Source of the DNA: Rhizophagus irregularis
Lineage: Eukaryota > Glomeromycota > Glomeromycetes > Glomerales > Glomeraceae
DNA: 64,000 nt
NCBI RefSeq assembly: GCF_026210795.1
Contig: NC_089451.1
Span: 604,001-668,000 of the forward strand
Direction: 5' to 3'
A program made the translations under genes and the position numbers. The number at the start of each line of letters is the position of its first letter. Position 1 is the stretch's first letter. A model generated the notes under the pieces. The model did no database searches. It saw only the letters and a program-made list of their open reading frames with translations, and was not told the origin of the DNA. This document shows, piece by piece, positions 10,170 to 64,000 of the stretch.

Positions 10170-11235
10170 TCAGATCAGATCAGATCAGATCAATTGGTTA
10201 ACCTAACTTGAAACTTTTTTTTAGGTTAAATCAGGTTAGGCGACCTGTACCGAATTGCACTAAGCTTATCTGATCTATTTGATCTTAATAGATTAGATTA
10301 GTTGGTTAATCTGATTTTTTTAGAATGGATAATTATTTATAAATAAAAATGAAAAAAACATCAGATTATAAAAAATAATAAAAAATATTACAAACTGGCA
10401 TTTTTTATAAATAAAAGTAAAAAAAATGCCATAAACTGGTAATTTTAATAAATAATACTAGAACGGCATTTTTTTTATAAAAAATAATGAAAATGCCATA
10501 AACCAGCATTTTTATAAATAAATGCCAGAATGGTGTTTTTTTTCATAAATAATTATAAAAAAATACTACATCCTAGCATTTTTCATTAAAAAATGTAAAA
10601 AAATGCCATAAGTCAGCATTTTTCATAAAAGAAATGAAAAAATACCATAAACTGGTATTTTCATAAATAAAAGTGAAAAAAAATGCCAAAATAGCGTTTT
10701 TAATAAATATGAAAAAATACTATAAACTGGCATTTTTCATAAATAAAAGTAAAAAAATGTTGGAATGGCATTTTTTCATAAATAAATATTAAAAAATGCC
10801 ATAAATCAGCATTTTTTATAAATAAAAGCAAAAAAAAATGCTAGAATGGCATTTTTTTCATAAATAAATATAAAAAAATGCCATAAACCAGCATTTTTCA
10901 TAAATAAAGTGCAAAAATGCCAAAATAGCGTTTTTTTATAAATAAATATGAAAAAATGCCATAAACTGGCATTTTTACATTTTCATAAATAAATATAAAA
11001 AAATACCATAAATCAGCATTTTTTATAAATAAAAATAAAAAAACACTAGAATGGCATTTTTTTTATAAATAAATATAAAAAAACACCATAAATTGTAAAA
11101 ATCCAGTTTTTTATTTTTAGGTTAACAGGTCAACCAGATCAGGTTGAAGCCTTAACATGATCTGGTACTAGATCATAGATTTGATAACTTGATTTGATTA
11201 TTTCAGATCAACCTGATCAGGTCATCTGAAATCAC
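10170..11235. repeat. Minisatellite framed by GATCAG-rich inverted ends
   Basis: From about 10330 to 11095, a unit of roughly 50-60 bp recurs a dozen or more times. It combines TGCCATAAACTGGCA-like short palindromes with TTTTTCATAAATAAA spacers. The flanks are rich in GATCAG and TGATC: GATCAGATCAGATCAGATCA near 10172 and TCAACCTGATCAGGTCATC near 11206. Both flanks also contain GGTTAA and GGTCA blocks. The whole could be one element with degenerate termini and a satellite core; termini and duplication were not established. Confidence 0.6.
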
Positions 11236-34309: not shown

Positions 34310-36486
34310 CAGGGACGATGATTTTCTGCTTTAAGCAGAAAACCGCAGAATTGTCCGAAATGATAGCTCAAAGCAGATACCATAAAAATAATCGCAGATT
34401 ATAGCAGATTTTAGAAAATCTATTTTTAATCTTTTTTTTCGAAGTATTTTTTTAAAAAATCGTAACTACTAGTTAAAAATGGTTAAGCATGGAAAAAAAG
34501 TAACTGTATATACTCGCGCAGCTGAACATCCAGGTCATTTTAAAGTTGTTGATGACGGTATTTTGCTTTGTATATATTGCAATTATGCTATTAAATGGGA
34601 AAAAAAATCAACCGTTGATGACCATGTTCGTGGTCCTGTTCATTGTGCAAAAAATGCAGCATATGAAAAAAAACAGAGAAATGGTGAAATACGACAACAA
34701 AGGACAATTACTTCAACAATTTCTATTGCTGATAGTAAAAAAGAATTAATTGAAGATTTAATTCAAGCTCTTGCTACTGCTAATATACCTTTAGAAAAAG
34801 TGAATTCTCTTATTCCTTTTTTTTGAAAACATGGAGGTTTATCCCCCAAGCACCTACATTACGTCAAATGTACTTACCTCAAATCTTTGAAAACCATCTT
34901 ACACAACTTAAACTTATGTTTGAAAGTAAACCAGTAGCAATCACCATGGATGAAACTTCAGATGATTGTGCTCGTAGTGTGGTGAATACTCTTTTTCACT
35001 TTCGCACAAATACCAAATTAGTTTCTGTGGATTTTTTAATTCAAGTTAATAATTCAACAATAGGATCAACTCTTCTTACAATTCTGACAAAATACAATAT
35101 TCATTTTTCTCTTCCACGTTTATTTATATCAGATTCAGCCGCTTATATGAAGAAATGTTTTCGTGAAGTGTTAAAACCTGTTATGCCACAACTGATTCAT
35201 GCTCCTTGCTGTGCACACATATTGAACTTAATTGGGTAAGTAAAGTATTTTTGTTATAAATTCAATTATCTCAAAATAATTTTGTATAATATTTTAAATT
35301 TGTAGTGAAACATGGCAAAAATTTAATCCATTTGCTATTTTAAAAGAATTCTTGGCTAAAGTAAAAGAATGCTTTGTTCGTAGTCCAGCAAGAAGAGGTA
35401 GATATTTAACACACTTACGCAATTATGGTATATCTTCTCCTTGTAAAATTCCTCTTCCTACTTCTACACGTTGGAATTCATGGTTTAAAATGGTTGAGTA
35501 TACAAAAATACATATACTCTATTGGAATTCCTTTTTTCAGGATGAAGTAACCAATGATTCAACAAATGAAACACTTAAAAATATTTTAAAAACTCTTTCT
35601 GATCCTTTCAAATTTGGTACAATTTCAGTTTATATTCATTTTATTTCTATATATGCAAGACAATTCATACAAGATACTGATTTTTTTCAGAAACAAAACA
35701 AGCCTATATTTCCATTTGTAGAGGGACGCCTTAATCATCTTTCTGCATTTTTAGAAAGTAATTGCAATTCTCAAGATTTTGGTCCAGATCTTGATAATAC
35801 TATTATTTCACATTATTTTAACCCACCTGATTTTTATCCTGTTTTTCGTTTAGCTTTTGAAGCTGCTTTTAACAAATTTAATGCTCATATTCCTTCACAT
35901 CCTACACGTTCACTTTTTTTGGCTGCCCAAATTTTTGATCCTAAATATATTTTACTTGGTCCATTGGAAAGAAAAAATTTACGTCAATATAGTGCTATTA
36001 GAGAATTAGCAAACCCTTCAGATGAATTACTTTGTGAATGGTCCATTTATTGTGGGTTGCAATTGGAAAATTCAGTTGGAGAAATTAATTTAGAAGAATA
36101 TTGGATGAATTTTGGAGATAAATTACCAATTCTTTCAAAAATTGCACTTGATTATATTTGGTTACCTGTATCAAGCTGTAGTGTGGAAAGAAGTTTTTCA
36201 ATTTATAATAATATTTTGGATGAAAATCGACAAAATCTTTCAGAGGATTCTTTGAAAGGATTAAATATGATGTATTTTAATGGAAACTAATTGTAAAGTC
36301 AAATAATAAATAAAATAAAATTTGATTTTAATAAAATTTTTTATAGCTGAAATGAGCAGAATTGCGAAATAAATGAGCAGAAAATGCGCCGAAATAATCA
36401 TTTTAAGTCCGCAGAAGCAGGGCAGATCATAGGTTAAATCGCCGGCAGATTTTATAAAATTTCGCCGCAGAAATTCATCGTCCCTG
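34310..36486 (+). mobile_element. hAT transposon with 8-bp target duplication
   Basis: The perfect 8-bp duplication CTCCTACA lies at 34302-34309 and 36487-36494. Terminal inverted repeats begin CAGGGACGATGA and read TTTCTGC inside both ends. Subterminal regions are rich in GCAGA/TCTGC repeats, a typical hAT transposase-binding arrangement. It contains one transposase gene. Confidence 0.92.
34479..36290 (+). pseudogene. hAT transposase, near-intact
   Basis: The N-terminus is BED-finger-like: VDDGILLCIYCNYAIKWEKK, then HVRGPVHCAKN. The core has TMDETSDDCARSVVN (first catalytic Asp), FISDSAAYMKKCF (second Asp) and APCCAHILNLI. A GTAAGT..TTGTAG intron at 35236-35305 joins HILNLIG to ETWQKFNPFA in frame. 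The end is the hATC dimerisation domain: LPILSKIALDYIWLPVSSCS, then VERSFSIYNNILDENRQNLS, with the catalytic-type Glu. One TGA at the T8 run (34824-34826) and one frame change immediately after it, before FIPQAPTLRQMY, block a full product. An assembly error in the homopolymer is possible. Confidence 0.85.
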
Positions 36487-46962: not shown

Positions 46963-47670
46963 AACATTATATGATATTTCTTCTTAAATCAGTTGATTTA
47001 ATACATCAGGACCATCAAGAAATCCAGATCCTTCCAAAAAAAGAGGTATATCAGGAAAATCTTTTAGAGATTTTACATTCAACTGCAAGTAAGATTCCAA
47101 TTGTCTCAATGCTTCCTGTTCAACTGCATCATTTACATCACTATAAAAATCACGATTCTGATATAAAATATCTTTACAAAGAGCAACTTTATGATTATTT
47201 CACAGAATTTTAGGTGCAGCAAGTGACAAAAGATAAGAATGGTCACAAAAAGGAAATGTAATTGTTAATCCATTCTCATACAACATGCTTTTCTCAAACA
47301 GACATCCCATTCGGTATTATCTTGAAGAAGGCCCAAACGAATATAGGCTTCCTTAAAACTTCCACATATATGACCTTCAACTGTCTTCAAGTCATCAAAA
47401 TTAGAAGCACCTCCTACATGAGCAAGCAATATTCGCAAATAATAATATTCACCTTCTGAAGGTTGCACCATGTACAGTCTTCCAATCCACTTGTAATAGT
47501 TTTTCGTATATTCTACAGTACTTATGATCGGTTGAATTCCAAGTATAATAAAGTGGAAAGTCAACATATCTGTAATTATGAGCAGCAGGATTCTTAGCAT
47601 TTTCTTGAAACTAAGCAACTAAAGTAATTACATGTAAGTCAGCATAATCTAAAACTTGCTGCAATTTTAT
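46963..47670 (-). pseudogene. Helitron protein fragment c
   Basis: DYADLHVITLVA, a stop, FQENAKNPAAHNYRYVDFPL, IGRLYMVQPSEGEYYYLRIL, LAHVGGASNFDDLKTVEGHI and AYIRLGLLQDNTEWDVCLRK, then CKDILYQNRDFYSDVNDAVE. This is the linker between the HUH/Helitron-like N region and the PIF1 helicase. The order and strand continue fragment b. Confidence 0.85.
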
Positions 47671-48342
47671 CAGCAAGTTTTAAAAGTGTTACTTTACATA
47701 ATTATAGTGTTAATTAACATTAAGGAGTTGTTTAATATGATATATCTTATCATTTAATACTGTATACTGTAATGATTAACACTGAATGCTGTTATATATG
47801 TATAATTTTACAAGTTTTTTTATGTTGTTTGATATCCAATATGATATGCAATGTAGTTTAATACCATCAATCAATCTAAACAAATATAAAATATTGTTTC
47901 ATTAAAATTTAGTATAAAAATATACTAGTTGTTATCGCTATTTATTAACACTATACATATTTTTTAACACAAAATGTAGTTTAACATATTGTTAATATTG
48001 TTAAATGCCAATAAGCAATATATATAAATATGAAGTTAGTTATACTGCAATTTAGTATAGAAATACACCCATTTTTATTAGTGTTTTTTAATATTATACA
48101 TATTTGTTAATACTAAGTGTAGTTTATTGTGTTGTTCAATATTAATAATTAATGTATATAAATACATATGAAACCTTATTACTGAAGACTCCCTCTTTTT
48201 ATCACTATAAAACAGGCAGAGGGAGTAGCAATAGCTCTCTCCCTATAAGTACTTTATAACCTTTACCTATTTATAGAGAAGGGGCTTTTTGTAAAGTATT
48301 AAAGTTAATAGATATATATATATGTATATATAAATACATATA

Positions 48343-48524
48343 CAGTCAAAGCTCGTTATAGTGAATCTCGTTATAGTGAACATTAAGTAAAATCATGTTA
48401 TAGTGACCTATTGATTTTTTTCCTTATAATTAATTTCTCTCAATATAGTGAATTTTCTTAATAAATCTCGTTATAGTGAAATTACATAGTGGAACGGAAA
48501 GTTCACTATAACGAGCTTTGACTG
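48343..48524. mobile_element. Pogo/mariner-like MITE, 182 bp
   Basis: Perfect 23-bp terminal inverted repeats starting CAGTCAAAGCTCGTTATAGT. TA lies outside both ends (48341-48342, 48525-48526). CTCGTTATAGTGAA repeats inside near both ends. Perfect TIRs suggest recent insertion. Confidence 0.9.
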
Positions 48525-48689
48525 TATACATCTATTAAAAAGTTATAAAAGAAAATTTCGAATTTCGGGAAAAGGCTCTGTTTATATATTTTTTATACAT
48601 CACATGTATTACGTGATACTGAATTAATAATTACTGCAGCTTCAACTGCGCCTGCTATGGTATAGAGCTTTTTTTAGCAAAGCTTATTT

Positions 48690-48892
48690 TTTTTTTCTCT
48701 TATGACCTTTATTTTTCCTTTCCTCTTTCGCTTCTCTTTCCCTTCTCCTTTCTTCTTACCCTTCCTCTTCCCCTTTCCCTTTCATTCTACCCTTTCCCTT
48801 TGCTCTCCCATTACCCTTTCATTTTCCTATTTCCCATTTTGTTTTCCCATTCTTTTTCGCTTTCCCCTTTTCTTTTCGTTCTCACCTTTTCC
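48690..48892 (+). repeat. Pyrimidine-rich tract preceding array block 2
   Basis: About 200 bp composed almost wholly of C and T (CTTTCC, TTCCCTT repeats), directly upstream of the first donor-like GTAAGTTTTG at 48898. It could be a promoter-like or splicing-relevant element. Confidence 0.6.
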
Positions 48893-48897
48893 AAATG

Positions 48898-50507
48898 GTA
48901 AGTTTTGAAGCGTTCGCCTCAAAACTTTTTTATAAAATTTAATTTTCTTTTTTATGTGGGAATGTTTTTAATGTTTCTTTGTTTTTTTTTTGTAGGACAT
49001 TCGTTATTATACCTTTAGAGCGAAATTGTAAATTTCAATGCAAAAGTTTTGAACCTTTTTTTTTTTAAGATTATTTTTTTTTAATTAGGAAACATTACTA
49101 ACGTTTCCTATATTTTTTTTTGTGTAGGATCTTTAGCTTGTTTTCAGTTCAAAATATTAAAAACTTTAAATTAATTTTTTTTTTATTTTAGGAAACTAAT
49201 ATTATTTAATAGTAACTAAAGATGGCGGTCTGATAGTCTAAACAAATCTTTCTGATGAAAGTTATTTCTTCACATGAAAACTGTCAGAATGATTTGTGAA
49301 GAATATTTATATACTACTGTTTTCTGGATTTCTGAACACATTTCCTATAATTTTTTTAAGGACTCTGTGTATTCAACTTAAAAAACAAAAGAGTAAGTTT
49401 CGAGACGTACGTCTTAAAACTTTTTAAAATTTTTTTTTTTCTTTTTAGGAAACATTACTAACATTTTCTATACTTTCTTTTTTATAGATGTTTGACTTTG
49501 GATCTTGGAAATGGTGGTGGATATGATAAGCTTTGAAGAGTTCACTTTCTCTTCAAAACTTAAAATCAATTTTTTAAAAAAAAAATTTTATTAGGAAACG
49601 TTTTCTAACGTCTCCTTTATCCTTTTTGTTGTAGGATTGGAATGTTCAGAATGGATGAACAGTTTGGTAAATTTCATTTCGTTATGAAACTTAAATAATA
49701 AATTTTAAAAATTTTTTTTTTTATTAGGAAATGTTCTAACTGAATGTCTCCTTTATTTTTTGTAGGTTCGAATATCTGGTATTGGATACGATAAGTTTCG
49801 TACTTTTTGTTACGAAACTTCTGTTGTTTTTTTTTTCTTTTTTTTAGATTAGAAAATGTTTACTAATATTTCCTTTTTCTTTATTTTATTTAGGTATATA
49901 ATAGAATCCGTTCTAATTTCGAAACCAGGATCCTGGATGGTAAGTTTCAAAGAGTTTCACTTCAAAACTTTAAAATCAATTTTTTTTAATTTTATTTAAA
50001 CTTTTTATTAGAAACCGTTCTAACTGAACGTCTCCTTTATTTTTTGTAGATTCGAGAATATCCGTATTGAATATGGGTTCTGAAACGGTAAGTTTCATAT
50101 GTTTCATTATGAAACTTCTGTTATTTTTTTATTTTTTTAATTAGGAAATGTTTACTAACATTTCCTTTTCTTTTTCTTTTATTTAGACTTCAGAATATTT
50201 TTGATTCTGGATGGTTATGGGTAAGTTACACAAATGTTGTAAAACTTATCATATATATTTTTTTAATAAAAACGTTTTCTAACATTTTCTTTTCATTCTT
50301 TTAGGTTCCAGGAGTTCAAGTTACTGGGAATTTGTAATTGGTAAGTTTTATTTATCATGGAACTTTCTTTTGATTTTTTTAGGAAATTTTTATTAACATT
50401 CTTTTCTCTTATTTTATAGGTACCGTCCGGTGTTTGATTTTGTGAAAACAGCAGGTTTTGTAACAACTTTCGTTGCAAAACTTATTTTTTCAAATTTTTT
50501 ATTTTAG
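48898..50507 (+). repeat. Intron-like tandem array, block 2 (about ten modules)
   Basis: Intron-like units: 48898-48995, 49028-49127, 49393-49487, 49526-49634, 49667-49765, 49791-49893, 49940-50049, 50088-50184, 50221-50304, 50341-50419, and a weaker one ending at 50507. Each starts GTAAGTTT-like (two have AT instead of GT). Each forms a short hairpin directly after the donor (TTTCGTA..TACGAAA, TTTCATA..TATGAAA, TTTGAAGAG..CTCTTCAAA). An AGGAAACNTT..CTAAC..GTTTCC block with a branch-point-like ACTAAC follows, then a T-rich tract and TAG. Exon-like segments between them are 25-46 nt. Confidence 0.75.
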
Positions 50508-50970
50508 TAACTTAGCAAAAATGGACCAGTTTTGGAGTGTGTGAAGGAGTTAAAGAGAAAAAAAGGAATAGAGAACTAAAGTGGATGAAAAGATGTCTGG
50601 GCGATACAAAATTATCGGAGATACGCAAAATGTATAGCTATTCAGCGTACTTATAATTTTATTTTACAGTTTTACGTTAGACATTAGATAGAAATTAAAA
50701 TATTTAAATAATACAAATTTATTTAGTATTAATAAAATAATAAAACAATACATTTATTTTCGCGTTAATATATACATTGTTTATCAAATTTATTAATAAA
50801 AAATTATATTGTACAATATAAATAAACTAACACATGATACGCGTTAGTTAACATTAATTTGCCATTTTTTTACACGTATTTTAATAGTGTCGGTCATTAT
50901 AGGGTTAGTTTTTCTATGTTTTTAAGATGTTAAACAACACTAGTGTCAATTGGTATTAATTAACACTAGT
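50508..50970. other. Non-coding right part of the 3.3-kb insertion
   Basis: A purine-rich stretch (AAGGAGTTAAAGAGAAAAAA) follows the last acceptor-like TTTTAG, then AT-rich DNA with GTTAACATTAA-type motifs up to the element's right end. This could be the terminal exon of a transcript from the array. Confidence 0.35.
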
Positions 50971-50980
50971 ATACACCACC

Positions 50981-52306
50981 CAAAATTTTACTGATGTTAT
51001 CATCATTATGGAAAGTAATAAGCTGCTTCTTAGGAAAATGAATCGCCAATCTTTAAACACTTGGAGAATGGCCATGCATCCTGTAATGAAAAATTCTCCA
51101 AATCGCTTCTGAAGACGAAATGTATCTTATGTCAAGATACATCTTTATCTCATCAACAGGTTCTTTAATAGGTGATCGCAATTCACTAGCACTTTCAGGT
51201 CATAAAAATGTAATAATAGCTTTATCGTAACTTTTGTATATGTATTTATACAAATATTTAATAGCCAAAACTGAATTACAGATTTCAACATTGATATGAG
51301 CATCATATTTTTCTACCAATTCAACATTGTGAGGAACCACTCATTGGTTATCTAAATGGACGTCATGTCTAACTTCAACAAAAGAACCATTGTCACGTCT
51401 ACGGTAAAGAGGATATCTGTCACAATTGTCCTGTATGAAGGATTAAAAAGATTTCAGATAATGCTTCTGGCAGAAACCATCCTTCATACACAGAGCTGAA
51501 AGATTAAGTACACCATACTGACTATGCATCATAGACGATATAACGGTCACAGTGAACATTAGGATCAGGGATTTCTACGGAAACAATTGCATTATAATCT
51601 TCTGCAGAATGAAGTTTTGAATCTTGCAAAAGAATTAGGAGAATATGAGCATATAGTAAGTCACATTTCTAAAATTTGATTACGTAAACAAATGTGACAA
51701 CTTTACTGAGGCAGTGTTTTTCACATAAATCCTTTAACAATTCTTGTAGTTTTATATGAAAAACATGTGCCATCAAATCAGGTCTATCTTGATATGGCAA
51801 CAATTTTCTTGTAATCTCTTGCCACTTAGAATTACATATGAAGGTGACAAAAAGGTCAGGCTTTTCAAAGTGACTCACGATAATCATAACATCTTGATAG
51901 AATTAGTATATCTGATATGAATCACCAATAAACGTTAAAGGAAGAAATATCTAACATCCAACATTCTGTCCAATATTTCCAGCATCTCTATTATCAGCAT
52001 CTTTATCATCAACATGTATGGTATCAGCAACTCCTTTATATAAATCTAAGCAAAGGGATGATTAATTAAATCTGAAATAATTCAAATGATACTATTCTAT
52101 CTTTAAATACTGGTCTACAACATACTGTTAATACAAACGGCCAGCATGTTGTAAGCAATTACCAGGTCTAATCTGTAACCTGTAAGAATAAAATTGCATA
52201 GAAGTCACTGTATCTCTTAAAGCATTTATTTGAGCATTATCTGCAAGCACTATATCAATATGCCATCCATCATTACCATTTAGAAATAGTAGCACGTATT
52301 GAAGAA
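50981..52306 (-). pseudogene. Helitron protein fragment b (Helitron_like_N region)
   Basis: Minus-strand order: VLLFLNGNDGWHIDIVLADN, TSMQFYSYRLQIRPGNCLQH, QYVVDQYLKIE, GVADTIHVDDKDADNRD, HFEKPDLFVTFICNSKWQEI, FHIKLQELLKDLCEKHCLSK, VEKYDAHINVEICNSVLAIK, YLYKYIYKSYDKAII and MYLDIRYISSSEAIWRIFHY. This is the classic Helitron N-terminal domain preceding and overlapping the HUH replicase; the HUH residues themselves are not clearly legible. Many stops and frame changes occur. Retroelement F separates it from fragment a. Confidence 0.85.
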
Positions 52307-55465: not shown

Positions 55466-58400
55466 CAGTCAACTCTCTTTATAGTCACACATTTGCGACA
55501 GTCCATATTTGGTGATTATAAAGAGATGTGACTATATAAAAAATTTCTTATATTTGTATATCATAATTCCGGCCAAAAATTAATTTTAGCCAGAATTATA
55601 CTTAAAACTTTATTGTATCGTAACTTCGCCAATATTAATCGTAGAGAGATGATCTTACCGCCATTCGATTCGTCATGATGAGACGGTTCTAATGGTATAA
55701 AATACGTCGAAATCCAATCACTAGATCAATTTCCGAAATTAAAAAATATTAAATGGTTTTTAAGTAATAACTCCGTCAATATTGATCACAAAGAGATGAG
55801 CTTACCACCATTCGATTTGTCTCGATGAGGCGATTCCAACGAGCTATAAATCGTCTTTTTACAATTCTAGATACCGAGAAATCTAACAAAATGTTAAATG
55901 GCGCAGTAAACGTAAATCAAGAAATATTATAATGCCGATGTTTAACATTTTGTTGAATAACTCGTTAGCCAGTAATCGGAAAAGGATAAAACTGGGTTGG
56001 TCACCCTATCTCGGTGGTTAGTCACTGAGACCCTCATTAAGCCTGAGTATGGTGAGGTCGCAGGTTCGATTCCCATGACCACGGAAATAAAAAGAATTTT
56101 ACTGCGGACGCTACAACCAATAGCGTGAAGGTACAGGGATTAGTGTAGTTGGACTGCATCATGGTGAATTAGTGTGTACGGTTAGGCCGCACATTTCAAC
56201 TAAGGGTCATGGTGTCCTTTTAACGTTCCCTATGAGGCCATTGGCATGTGCGCAGTCCTGTCCTTGAGGTCACTACTATACCTTGGGGGGGACTTCCTGT
56301 CTGGGTGGTCACTCCACGATACCACTTGGGGTCAGTAATGGCTAGATGGTCATCCTAGATGGTAAAGCTGAGGGTGCAATGTCTTAGTGGTAGTTAGACC
56401 TTCTGTTAGGTCTTAGGCCAACCAAGGTGTTCGTGCACAGAACAGGTAGCATGGTTATGGGGTTCGATTTTCCACTTCTGGGTCCCCTGGTTGGCGATCC
56501 CCTGGTGGTTGATACCCACCATAAGGGGTGATCCTGGACAGAAGCTTGCTACTTCCTGTCTGAGTGGTCACTACATAAGTATACCACTTGGGGTAAACAA
56601 CTGTACTATCGGTGCTAGGTAATCGCGGGCTGTAGTGGCCTTTGAGTGAGACCTCGTACCTAAAATGGTGGTATGGAAGGGTACTAGATGGTTGATGTTA
56701 CCTGTCGAAAGTCCTCCATGAAAGTAGGTGCTCTCTAAAGGTCGTAAAATAAATTGAGTACCAGTATCATGCAATGGATTAAGGATGAGTAGGCGGCGTG
56801 TACCTAGCTTCAGATCAGCCTAAAATGGATCGATGGGGGATGTCTTCTACATGGTGCTGTTACCTGAGGAATTAAGTCTTTCGGTTTAATGGTTGCCTAT
56901 TGAAGATGATAGGACACAGACCCGAGATTAGTCTCATAAGAGGCAATGGGTGGTCTGGCCGTAAACAATAGCAAAGGAAAAGGATAAAACTGGGGTTGGT
57001 CACCCTATCTTGGTGGTTAGTCACTGAGACCCTCATTAAGCCCGAGTATGGTGAGGTCGCAGGTTCAATTCCCATGACCACGGAAATAAAAAGAATTTTA
57101 CTGCGGACGCTACAACCAATAGCGTGAAGGTACAGGGATTAGTGTAGTTGGACTGCATCGCATGGTGAATTAGTGTGTACGGTTAGGCCGCACATTTCAA
57201 CTAAAAGTCATGGTGTCCTTCTAACGTTCCTATGAGGCCATTGGCATGTGCGCAGTCCTGTCCTTGAGGTCTACTATACCTTGGGGGGGGAGGGGCTTCC
57301 TGTCTGGGTGGTCACTCTATGATACCGCTTGGGGTCAGTAATGGCTAGATGGTCGTCCTAGATGGTAAAGCTGAGGGTGCAATGTCTTAGTGGTAGTTAG
57401 ACCTTCTGTTAGGTCTTAGACCAACCAAGGTGTTCGTGCACAGAACAGGTAGCATGGCTATGGGGTTCGATTCCCTACTCCTTGGGTCCTGGTTGGTGAT
57501 CCCTGGTGGTTGATACCCACCATAAGGGGTGATCCTGGACAGATGCCTGCTACTTCCTGTCTGAGTGGTCACTATAAAGTATACCACTTGGGGTAAACAA
57601 CTGTACTATCGGTACTAGGTAATCGCGGGCTGTAGTGGACTTTGAGTGAGACTTAGTACCTAAAATGGTGGTATGGAAGGGTCTTAGATGGTTGATGTTA
57701 CCTGTCGAAAGTCCTCCATGAAAGTAGATGCTCTCTAAGGTCGTTAAATAAATTGAGTATCAGTATCATGCAATGGGTATAGGATGAGTAGGCGGCGTGT
57801 ACCTAGCTTCAGATCAGCCTAAAATGGCCCGATGGGGGATGTCTTCTATAGTGGTGCTGTTACCTGAGGAATTAAGTACTCGGTATAATGGTTGCCCATT
57901 GAAGATGATAGGACACAGACCTGAGATTAGTCTCATAAGAGGCAATGGGTGGTCTGGCCGTAAACACTTGCAAAGGAAAAGGATAAAACTAAGGGTTGGT
58001 CACCCTATCTCGGTGGTTAGTCGCCGAGACCCTCATTAAGCCTGAGTATGGTGAGGTCGCAGGTTCGATTCCCATGACCACGGAAATAAAAGAATTTTAC
58101 TGCGGACGCTACAACCAATAGCGTGAAGGTACAGGGATTAGTGTAGTTGGACTGCATCATGGTGAATTAGTGTGTACGGTTAGGCCGCACATTTCAACTA
58201 AGGGTCGTAGTCCTTCTAACGTTCCCCTATGAGGCCATTGGTATGTGCGCAGTCCTGTCCCCGGGTTGAGGTCACTACTATGCACCTTGGGGGGACTTCC
58301 TGTTCAGGTGGTCACTCCACGATACCACTTGGGGTCAGTAATGGCTAGATGGTTGCCTAGATGGTAAAGCTGAGGGTGCGATGTCTTAGTGGTAGTTTGA

Positions 58401-63429: not shown

Positions 63430-64000
63430 ATATAGATTATAGGAATCAGTTATAATGAATCCCATAGCCCATAGGTAAGTTTCAAAAAAATTTTTTGAAA
63501 CTACTAAAAAAACATTTTTTTTAACATTTTTTTTTATTATTCTATTATAGGGAGTCAGGTACAATGAATCCCATAAGTAAGTTTTGAAAAAAAATTTTCA
63601 AAACTTTAAAAAATATTTTTAACGTTTTTTTTCTAATACATTATTATAAGGAATTAGATATAACGAATTCTATAGGTTAGTTTCAAAAAATAATTTTTTA
63701 AAACTATTAAAAAAACGTTTTTAACATTTTTTTTTAATATACTATGATTATAGGGAATCAGTTCCAAAGTTGAATACTGAATCCTATAGGTAAATTTCAG
63801 AAATTTTTTTTCAAAATTTAAAAAAAAATGGGTTTTAATGTTTTTTATTATTATTCTATTATAAGGAGTTGGATATCGAATTCTATAGGTTAGTTTTAAA
63901 AAAAAATTTTGAAACTATTAAAAAAATGTTAATAAACGTTTTTTTATTATTCTATTATAGGGAATCAGCTCTGATATATATACTAGAATCCCATAAGTAA
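63430..64000 (+). repeat. Intron-like tandem array, block 3 (runs off the window)
   Basis: Five to six modules. Exon-like segments are such as GGAATCAGTTCCAAAGTTGA..CCTATAG and GGAGTCAGGTACAATGAATC. Donors are GTAAGTTTC, GTAAGTTTTG, GTTAGTTTC, GTAAATTTC and GTTAGTTTT. Hairpins (TTTCAAAAAAATTTTTTGAAA) follow, with a TTTTTAACATTT-like block and a TTCTATTATAG acceptor. The array continues past the right edge. It is closest in sequence to block 1. Confidence 0.75.

Follow-up and report, generated by a model that had tools for sequence, protein, structure and literature searches.

The locus studied here raises a simple question: what is an array of very small exon-like pieces and hairpin-bearing intron-like units in the genome of Rhizophagus irregularis? 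It might be a micro-exon gene, a pile of multiplied introns, a structured non-coding transcript or a set of DNA palindromes. The window, the whole stretch of DNA that was analysed, is 64 kb long (C23:604001-668000) and belongs to a genome of 146.7 Mb in 32 contigs.

The array and its carrier in the window

Between positions 48,898 and 50,507 of the window, on the plus strand, about 12 intron-like units alternate with exon-like pieces of 25-46 nt. The units contain a donor, a branch motif, a T-rich tract and AG, and most of them have one hairpin at the donor and another at the branch site (Table 1). The modules reported in a preliminary description of this DNA are real, although about 12 were found where it had counted about ten. 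It also gave every unit the same donor and an immediate hairpin, which holds for most of them, but the donors at 49526 and 49791 read AT, one donor is lost, and the hairpins at 49028, 50221 and 50341 are weak or imperfect. The pairings that it quoted are all present: CGTA with TACG in the intron at 49791, CATA with TATG at 50088, GAAGAG with CTCTTC at 49526 and GAGACG with CGTCTT at 49393.

A covariance model was built from 52 introns of other loci and run on the window. None of these introns came from the window itself, and 2 of the 52 came from L001, its 89% paralogue. The model found nine introns with E values of 7.5e-4 or lower, all on the plus strand between 48898 and 50305, and gave weaker matches at 50341 (E 0.04) and 50451 (E 0.018). 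In the whole 64-kb window no place outside the array scored below E 0.01. Intron 3 is interrupted by a 142-bp stretch (49201-49342), of which another copy, 92% identical, lies at C7:5103221-5103362. With two AT donors and one lost donor, the window copy is a decayed fossil. Copies would decay neutrally after landing, and the window copy is probably among these.

Table 1. Features of the array-carrying element (positions in the window)
Feature	Position	Strand	Evidence
Non-autonomous TIR DNA transposon carrying the array, 3,329 bp including MITE	47668..50996	+	TIRs, TT on both sides
5' terminal inverted repeat CATCAGCAAGTTTTAAAAGTGTT, starting with T in this copy	47668..47690	+	match at C23:651668
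Conserved upstream block, possible promoter	48171..48342	+	similarity resumes at 48525 past the MITE
MITE inside the block, 27-nt perfect inverted repeats	48339..48528	.	
CT-rich tract ahead of the first donor	48686..48896	+	
Hairpin intron 1	48898..48995	+	model E 2.9e-6
Exon-like piece, 32 nt	48996..49027	+	
Intron 2, donor GTAAATTT, donor hairpin weak	49028..49127	+	model E 2.6e-5
Exon-like piece and disrupted intron 3, donor lost	49128..49360	+	comparison with L001
Exon-like piece, 32 nt	49361..49392	+	comparison with L001
Hairpin intron 4	49393..49487	+	model E 2.4e-9
Exon-like piece, 38 nt	49488..49525	+	
Hairpin intron 5, donor AT (L001: GT)	49526..49634	+	model E 4.8e-6
Exon-like piece, 32 nt	49635..49666	+	
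Hairpin intron 6	49667..49765	+	model E 7.5e-4
Exon-like piece, 25 nt	49766..49790	+	
Hairpin intron 7, donor AT (L001: GT)	49791..49893	+	model E 3.6e-5
Exon-like piece, 46 nt	49894..49939	+	
Hairpin intron 8	49940..50049	+	model E 7.4e-5
Exon-like piece, 38 nt	50050..50087	+	
Hairpin intron 9	50088..50186	+	model E 1.3e-8
Exon-like piece, 34 nt	50187..50220	+	
Intron 10, donor hairpin imperfect	50221..50304	+	model E 1.5e-4
Exon-like piece, 36 nt	50305..50340	+	
Intron 11, hairpin weak	50341..50419	+	model E 0.04
Exon-like piece, 35 nt	50420..50454	+	
Short intron-like unit 12 with hairpin, donor GTTTTG	50455..50507	+	model E 0.018
3' terminal inverted repeat, reads CATCAGTAAAATTTTGGG...	50969..50996	-	match at C23:654969-654996

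When the window was compared with its closest copy (on C22, 89% identical), the similarity stopped at matching inverted-repeat ends, CATCAGCAAGTTTT... and CATCAGTAAAATTTTGGG.... Allowing up to two mismatches, the 5' repeat has 77 matches in the genome and the 3' repeat 19, nine of which are one variant, with no match to the control in either search. The window element is flanked by TT on both sides, and 2-bp target duplications were found in seven of eight two-ended elements, the eighth (on C7) fitting 3 bp only. The window element thus has the terminal inverted repeats, at sharp common ends, and the target site duplication of a TIR DNA transposon, a setting that the preliminary description had missed. 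From 40 of 202 candidates scored, 119 matches were grouped by hand into 40 array loci. In 26 of these loci the 5' repeat lies upstream on the same strand within 9 kb, and the remaining 14 do not have it; the 14 include C7:5103221, which holds no array and matches the interrupting stretch of intron 3 only. At L002:9-78 (C5:2621508-2621577) the 3' end of an element is immediately followed by an inverted copy of the 5' end.

Other features were observed in the window. A second hairpin-intron array with unrelated exons (of the GGAATCAGCTCCAA..GAATCCCATAG type) was seen at 63474-64000 and L039; its best model match has an E value of 0.012, and by eye its exons resemble those of L032. Between 55800 and 61900 there are about six tandem copies of a unit of about 1 kb (marker at 56094, 57093, 58092, 59078, 59964 and 60952). 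This repeat has a G+C content of 0.46-0.48 in a window of about 30% G+C and contains a tRNA-B-box-like stretch, GGTTCGATTCC, and it gave no Rfam or tRNA match. Across the whole window no Rfam match was obtained at gathering scores and the tRNA scan found none. An ORF at 35298-36287 has a hAT dimerisation domain (PF05699, E 9.6e-12), and an AT-rich tandem array at 10376-11093 (periods 67, 79 and 40), with AATGCC and GGCATT arms, gave weak covariance-model matches on the minus strand (E 0.07 and 0.21).

Related arrays and a second transposon family

The donor hairpin is widespread in the genome. The exact pattern GTAAGTTTCG N3-30 CGAAACTT was found 688 times on both strands, a few palindromes being counted twice, whereas the backwards pattern was not found at all. 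When the hairpin could be preceded by any two bases, 983 spans were obtained (reversed control, 9), and the pattern GGAAACGTT N1-10 AACGTTTCC gave 89 spans (control, 0). Among the matches listed, those to the exact pattern are clustered in arrays, in places with a spacing of about 129 bp. The intron design is common to arrays with quite unrelated exons, and the loops of the donor hairpins range from 3 to 15 nt. At L036 the outer arm is altered on both sides by eye (GTAAGTATT..AATACTT). Introns of another type were seen at L041:3027-3600, with a hairpin that starts within the exon and holds the donor GT in its loop (ATTTCGAAG directly followed by GTATA CTTCGAAAT); by eye, their outer pair shows a change from C-G to T-A.

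The conserved upstream block led to a second transposon family. At least 41 matches to the block were found (40 of 94 candidates scored), namely the block's match to itself, a fragment of 36 nt and 39 further matches with 85-93% identity. Three of the block matches were followed, and they sit in elements of 5.1-5.7 kb with the ends CACAGGTCGAA. These ends occur 162 times genome-wide (control, 1). Among the matches listed, many pairs of ends are about 4-5.5 kb apart, others 8-9 kb and a few wider. In one 8-kb relative with the same terminal inverted repeats (L059), an ORF of 821 aa contains the tnp2 domain found in CACTA transposases (PF02992, E 1.4e-9), and three of the 8-kb relatives (L057-L059) contain no hairpin introns. 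Element A, which carries an array, has about 440-670 bp at the 5' end and 800 bp at the 3' end in common with L059, with nothing detectable between. Its block is 89% identical to that of the window element over 176 columns, and the window element itself shows no similarity to L059.

In the second family, target duplications of 3 bp were found in four of six elements (A, C, L057 and L058); element B fits 4 bp and L059 has none. Element A (C20, 1.018 Mb) is 97.9% identical over 4.3 kb to a copy at 1.094 Mb of the same contig, and 99.2% identical over its first 1.2 kb to a copy on C23. Such high identities suggest a recent spread or, for the pair on C20, a local duplication. C20:1017659-1022770 is an example of a recent intact copy. 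In all 16 examined loci that have the block, the array lies on the strand of the block, and four opposite-strand GTAAGTTTY words occur in three of them. At L041:4657-5058 an ORF matches the Cas12f1-like TNB domain (PF07282, E 1.3e-20), as in Fanzor/TnpB-type proteins; the ORF extends across the right boundary of the CACTA-type element, with the TNB domain just outside.

The second family resembles non-autonomous CACTA elements (tnp2, Transposase_21) in its CAC... ends, and its two ends are also those of 8-kb elements, including the one with the tnp2 transposase ORF; its duplications, mostly of 3 bp, may fit as well. It differs from them in that the interior of the array elements is replaced by the upstream block and the array of tiny exons and hairpin introns. 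The window family is a further departure, with CATCAG ends and mostly 2-bp duplications.

Hairpins, splice signals and complementary change

Donors were picked blind to the hairpin, starting from an upstream branch motif and acceptor and taking the first GTRAG 18-60 nt on, which gave 120 distinct donors in the array loci examined. Their first 45 nt had a mean folding z of -3.28 against dinucleotide shuffles, compared to -0.05 for 15 chaperonin-gene introns taken as controls. Of the 120 donors, 75 had a stem score of at least 9, as did 36 of 360 shuffles and 2 of the 15 controls; the controls were placed from 15 gaps between protein matches, and some of their boundaries may be off. The second hairpin at the branch motif, also claimed in the preliminary description, is borne out: 94 distinct branch regions had a mean z of -3.58, and control regions, located by distance from the intron end, +0.2. 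Several exons looked palindromic by eye as well, and this idea was rejected, as 99 exons proved unstructured with a mean z of -0.08.

The association of hairpins with splice signals is directional. Under a strict rule, 81 of 198 donor hairpins have a branch motif, a pyrimidine tract and YAG within 95 nt downstream, whereas in the mirror test, with the same rule applied to the reverse complement of the upstream side, none of the 198 do. The array introns thus present the U2-type signals, GT, branch motif and AG, in order on one strand.

These results bear on whether the arrays act as DNA palindromes, either as binding sites of a transposase or host factor or as by-products of replication slippage or template switching that perfects palindromes, the splice-like letters being incidental. 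The palindromic words GTTTCG and CGAAAC occur in both hairpins, the arrays are located inside transposons, and T-G and C-A decay is symmetric (see below). CACTA elements elsewhere have subterminal repeats that are bound by their own proteins. However, palindrome counts in the CACTA relatives lend the transposase-site idea no support: the three 8-kb relatives (8.2-8.5 kb each) are without GTTTC..GAAAC and have GAAAC..GTTTC once among them. Moreover, stems vary while pairing is kept and the loops differ in length, which is unlike a protein site, the hairpins keep their register with the GT, the branch motif and the YAG on one side only, and the intervening exons are unstructured. We consider the palindrome explanation unlikely, if still worth keeping in mind.

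We favour a different reading, to which we give a probability of roughly 55%: the array is probably the cargo of non-autonomous TIR DNA transposons and consists of non-coding units that would be multiply spliced, with introns that fold locally. The cargo would be a block like a transcription unit, with a conserved upstream region and a CT-rich leader, followed by tandem modules, each made of a putative non-coding exon of 25-46 nt and an intron of spliceosomal type of about 95 nt. The typical intron is predicted to fold into two local hairpins, the first from donor position +3, burying +4 to +8, and the second with the branch motif spanning its loop and its 3' arm. Active master copies would be transcribed and spliced. 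The hairpins may tie the donor to the branch site of the same intron, so that the tiny exons are not skipped, and local folding may ensure that each donor is matched to its proper branch site among near-identical splice sites.

Folding of the 52 introns left the donor GU mostly free (0.72 and 0.67 unpaired) with positions +4 to +8 buried, and shortened the path from donor to branch site from 68 to 30 nt. In controls it was shortened from 49 to 20 nt, and the branch A was no more often unpaired than in controls (0.35 and 0.38). As the controls are shortened too and their branch A is equally exposed, the shortening is not special and these folding numbers are no proof of the proposed mechanism. 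Burying +4 to +8 could also hinder U1 instead of helping it. A candidate alternative use of the same words would be a hairpin at the exon end (GAAAC G/GTAA GTTTC) that presents the donor in its loop.

The variation of the stems was followed in a set of 155 distinct donor hairpins, which were found by their outer arms alone; the inner pairs were not used for selection, and for them the set is without stem-bonus bias. Watson-Crick pairing was seen at inner pair 2 in 144 of 150 hairpins (A-T 77, T-A 37, C-G 30). At inner pair 4 it was seen in 91 of 118. In the 52-intron alignment, pairs 11-28 (A-U 21, C-G 11, U-A 9) and 12-27 (A-U 33, G-C 6) have no unpaired sequence. The covariation score of the whole structure was 0.216, compared to 0.135 for shuffles (none of 500 reached it) and at most 0.108 for slid versions. 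Two of five measures on the same alignment were unremarkable: further pair types numbered 26 against 26.0 (reached by 321 of 500 shuffles), and there were 12 pairs with both sides changed, against 9.5 in shuffles, 25 of 500 of which reached that number. The alignment holds 52 of 68 candidates, at most two per locus, chosen by a score that includes a stem bonus, so its covariation result is biased towards pairing. RNAalifold predicted the donor stem from this alignment, and the branch stem was not predicted.

Genome-wide, the outer pair was CG in 688 cases, TG in 163, CA in 151 and TA in 179, an odds ratio of 5.0, with TA pairs at 179 against 96 expected under independence. The frequencies of U.G and C.A are much the same (163 and 151; 46 and 40 in the set of 155), and nothing now favours RNA wobble pairs; the wobble test shows no RNA-level selection at present. 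In the branch stem A-C exceeds G-T (44 against 23 at one pair), and its CpG pairs seem for the most part to have decayed independently. Only nine 4-mer classes make up the fully complementary inner stems, so that independent events are few. A tree from the rest of the intron likewise supports few independent pairs, and on it no association was seen for the outer CpG pairs. Parsimony placed seven changes at pair 11-28 and four at pair 12-27, with every sequence still paired (41 of 41 and 39 of 39), on a tree from at most 88 T-rich columns. Divergence of exons and introns had no consistent direction (L001 and window, 0.111 and 0.155; L041 and L042, 0.030 and 0.046; L041 and L043, 0.055 and 0.038).

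The preliminary description had taken the kept pairing as a sign of selection on RNA structure. Complementarity is indeed kept across families, but the similar frequencies of U.G and C.A and the inconsistent divergence of exons and introns are as in neutral decay. Since many C-G pairs in the family of the window decay about equally often to T-G or C-A, the term 'compensatory' fits comparisons across families more than those within the array.

Exons, known systems and significance

A micro-exon protein gene was among the explanations offered at the outset. Such a family could encode, for example, secreted effectors like the bicycle genes of aphids, captured by a transposon and decayed in the copies seen. 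The exons of 25-46 nt with many introns fit this picture, several copies have an ATG at the end of the first exon, and reading L001 by eye gives an almost uninterrupted open chain. However, the lengths of 120 exons fall into 29, 45 and 46 modulo 3, with no excess of 3n. In 35 runs of four or more exons, chosen with the same stem-bonus score as the 52-intron alignment, the longest open frame of the spliced exons had a mean percentile of 0.50 among permuted exon orders, and 3 of the 35 runs were fully open; no frame is kept through the spliced exons. L021 has, by eye, four tandem 38-nt exons, so that the frames must rotate through one that holds a stop. The exons are also not consistently better conserved than the introns. 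The coding micro-exon gene, plausible at first from the chain in L001, was rejected on exon lengths, permuted orders and divergence, and a coding family that has decayed in these copies is improbable. The exons look non-coding, as far as tested.

The bicycle genes resemble the arrays in their many very small exons, and in the available text nearly all their internal exons are in phase 2 and protein-coding (PMC9168663), unlike the array exons, which are without 3n excess and keep no frame. The SP7-like effector genes of R. irregularis are similar in that they form a repeat family spread over chromosomes. They differ in having protein repeats and a conserved intron before the first repeat, and the accessible part of their description mentions no micro-exon array (PMC11333574). 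We dropped them as the identity of the array for these differences in gene structure and because the array exons keep no frame.

An introner-like tandem expansion had been suggested too. Here single introns would have been multiplied by insertion into genes and piled up at this place. The arrays do consist of tandem duplicates with structured introns, there are many similar structured introns in one genome, and fungal introner-like elements have inverted repeats or stable folds, according to the text available (PMC8469720). Yet each unit combines an exon with an intron and is repeated in tandem within a larger element that has ends of its own, all copies examined belong to such elements or are tandem duplicates and none is a single intron inserted in a gene, and the two hairpins are local instead of end-to-end. 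Moreover, none of the 15 chaperonin introns is similar, and the model run on 12 other loci found none below E 0.2. This origin therefore appears very improbable, the least probable of those weighed here.

Two known introner systems are nevertheless close in some respects. The introner-like elements and symmetrical sister stwintrons of Hypoxylaceae are repeated introns of spliceosomal type with inverted repeats. As described in the part of the source available, their terminal inverted repeats are 45-55 nt long and they are seamless in genes, with no target duplications (PMC8469720). Arrays of the window type have, in contrast, two local hairpins, tandem and apparently non-coding exons and a surrounding transposon. 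The introners of Amoebophrya share with the array introns palindromes that form hairpins and a transposon-like spread; in the available account they make up a subset of the introns, with non-canonical splice sites and with 5' and 3' ends that pair (PMC7789003), whereas the array introns are GT-AG and have one hairpin at the donor and another at the branch site.

Repeated introns with structure are already known, and so are gutted CACTA elements. In the portion of the open-licence literature consulted we found no description of a transposon cargo of tandem non-coding micro-exons with two-hairpin introns, and recognised no intron arrays in Rhizophagus or in DNA transposons.

Returning to the transposon cargo that we favour, a more far-reaching form of it is possible, though we regard it with considerable doubt. 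The cargo might work as an RNA: a promoter-driven, multiply spliced non-coding array whose introns have a folding code of their own, in the form of the donor and branch hairpins. Unrelated transposon families would have exchanged it, and tandem duplication would have enlarged it. Either the spliced product or splicing as such would then benefit the element, for instance if its transcripts thereby avoided fungal silencing. If the arrays are spliced, a single intron design would be available in hundreds of natural variants with several different stems, and the part that RNA folding plays at donor and branch site would be directly testable. It could then also be asked why mobile elements of what is probably a mycorrhizal fungus carry long non-coding splicing arrays, and whether splicing may help them to escape silencing.
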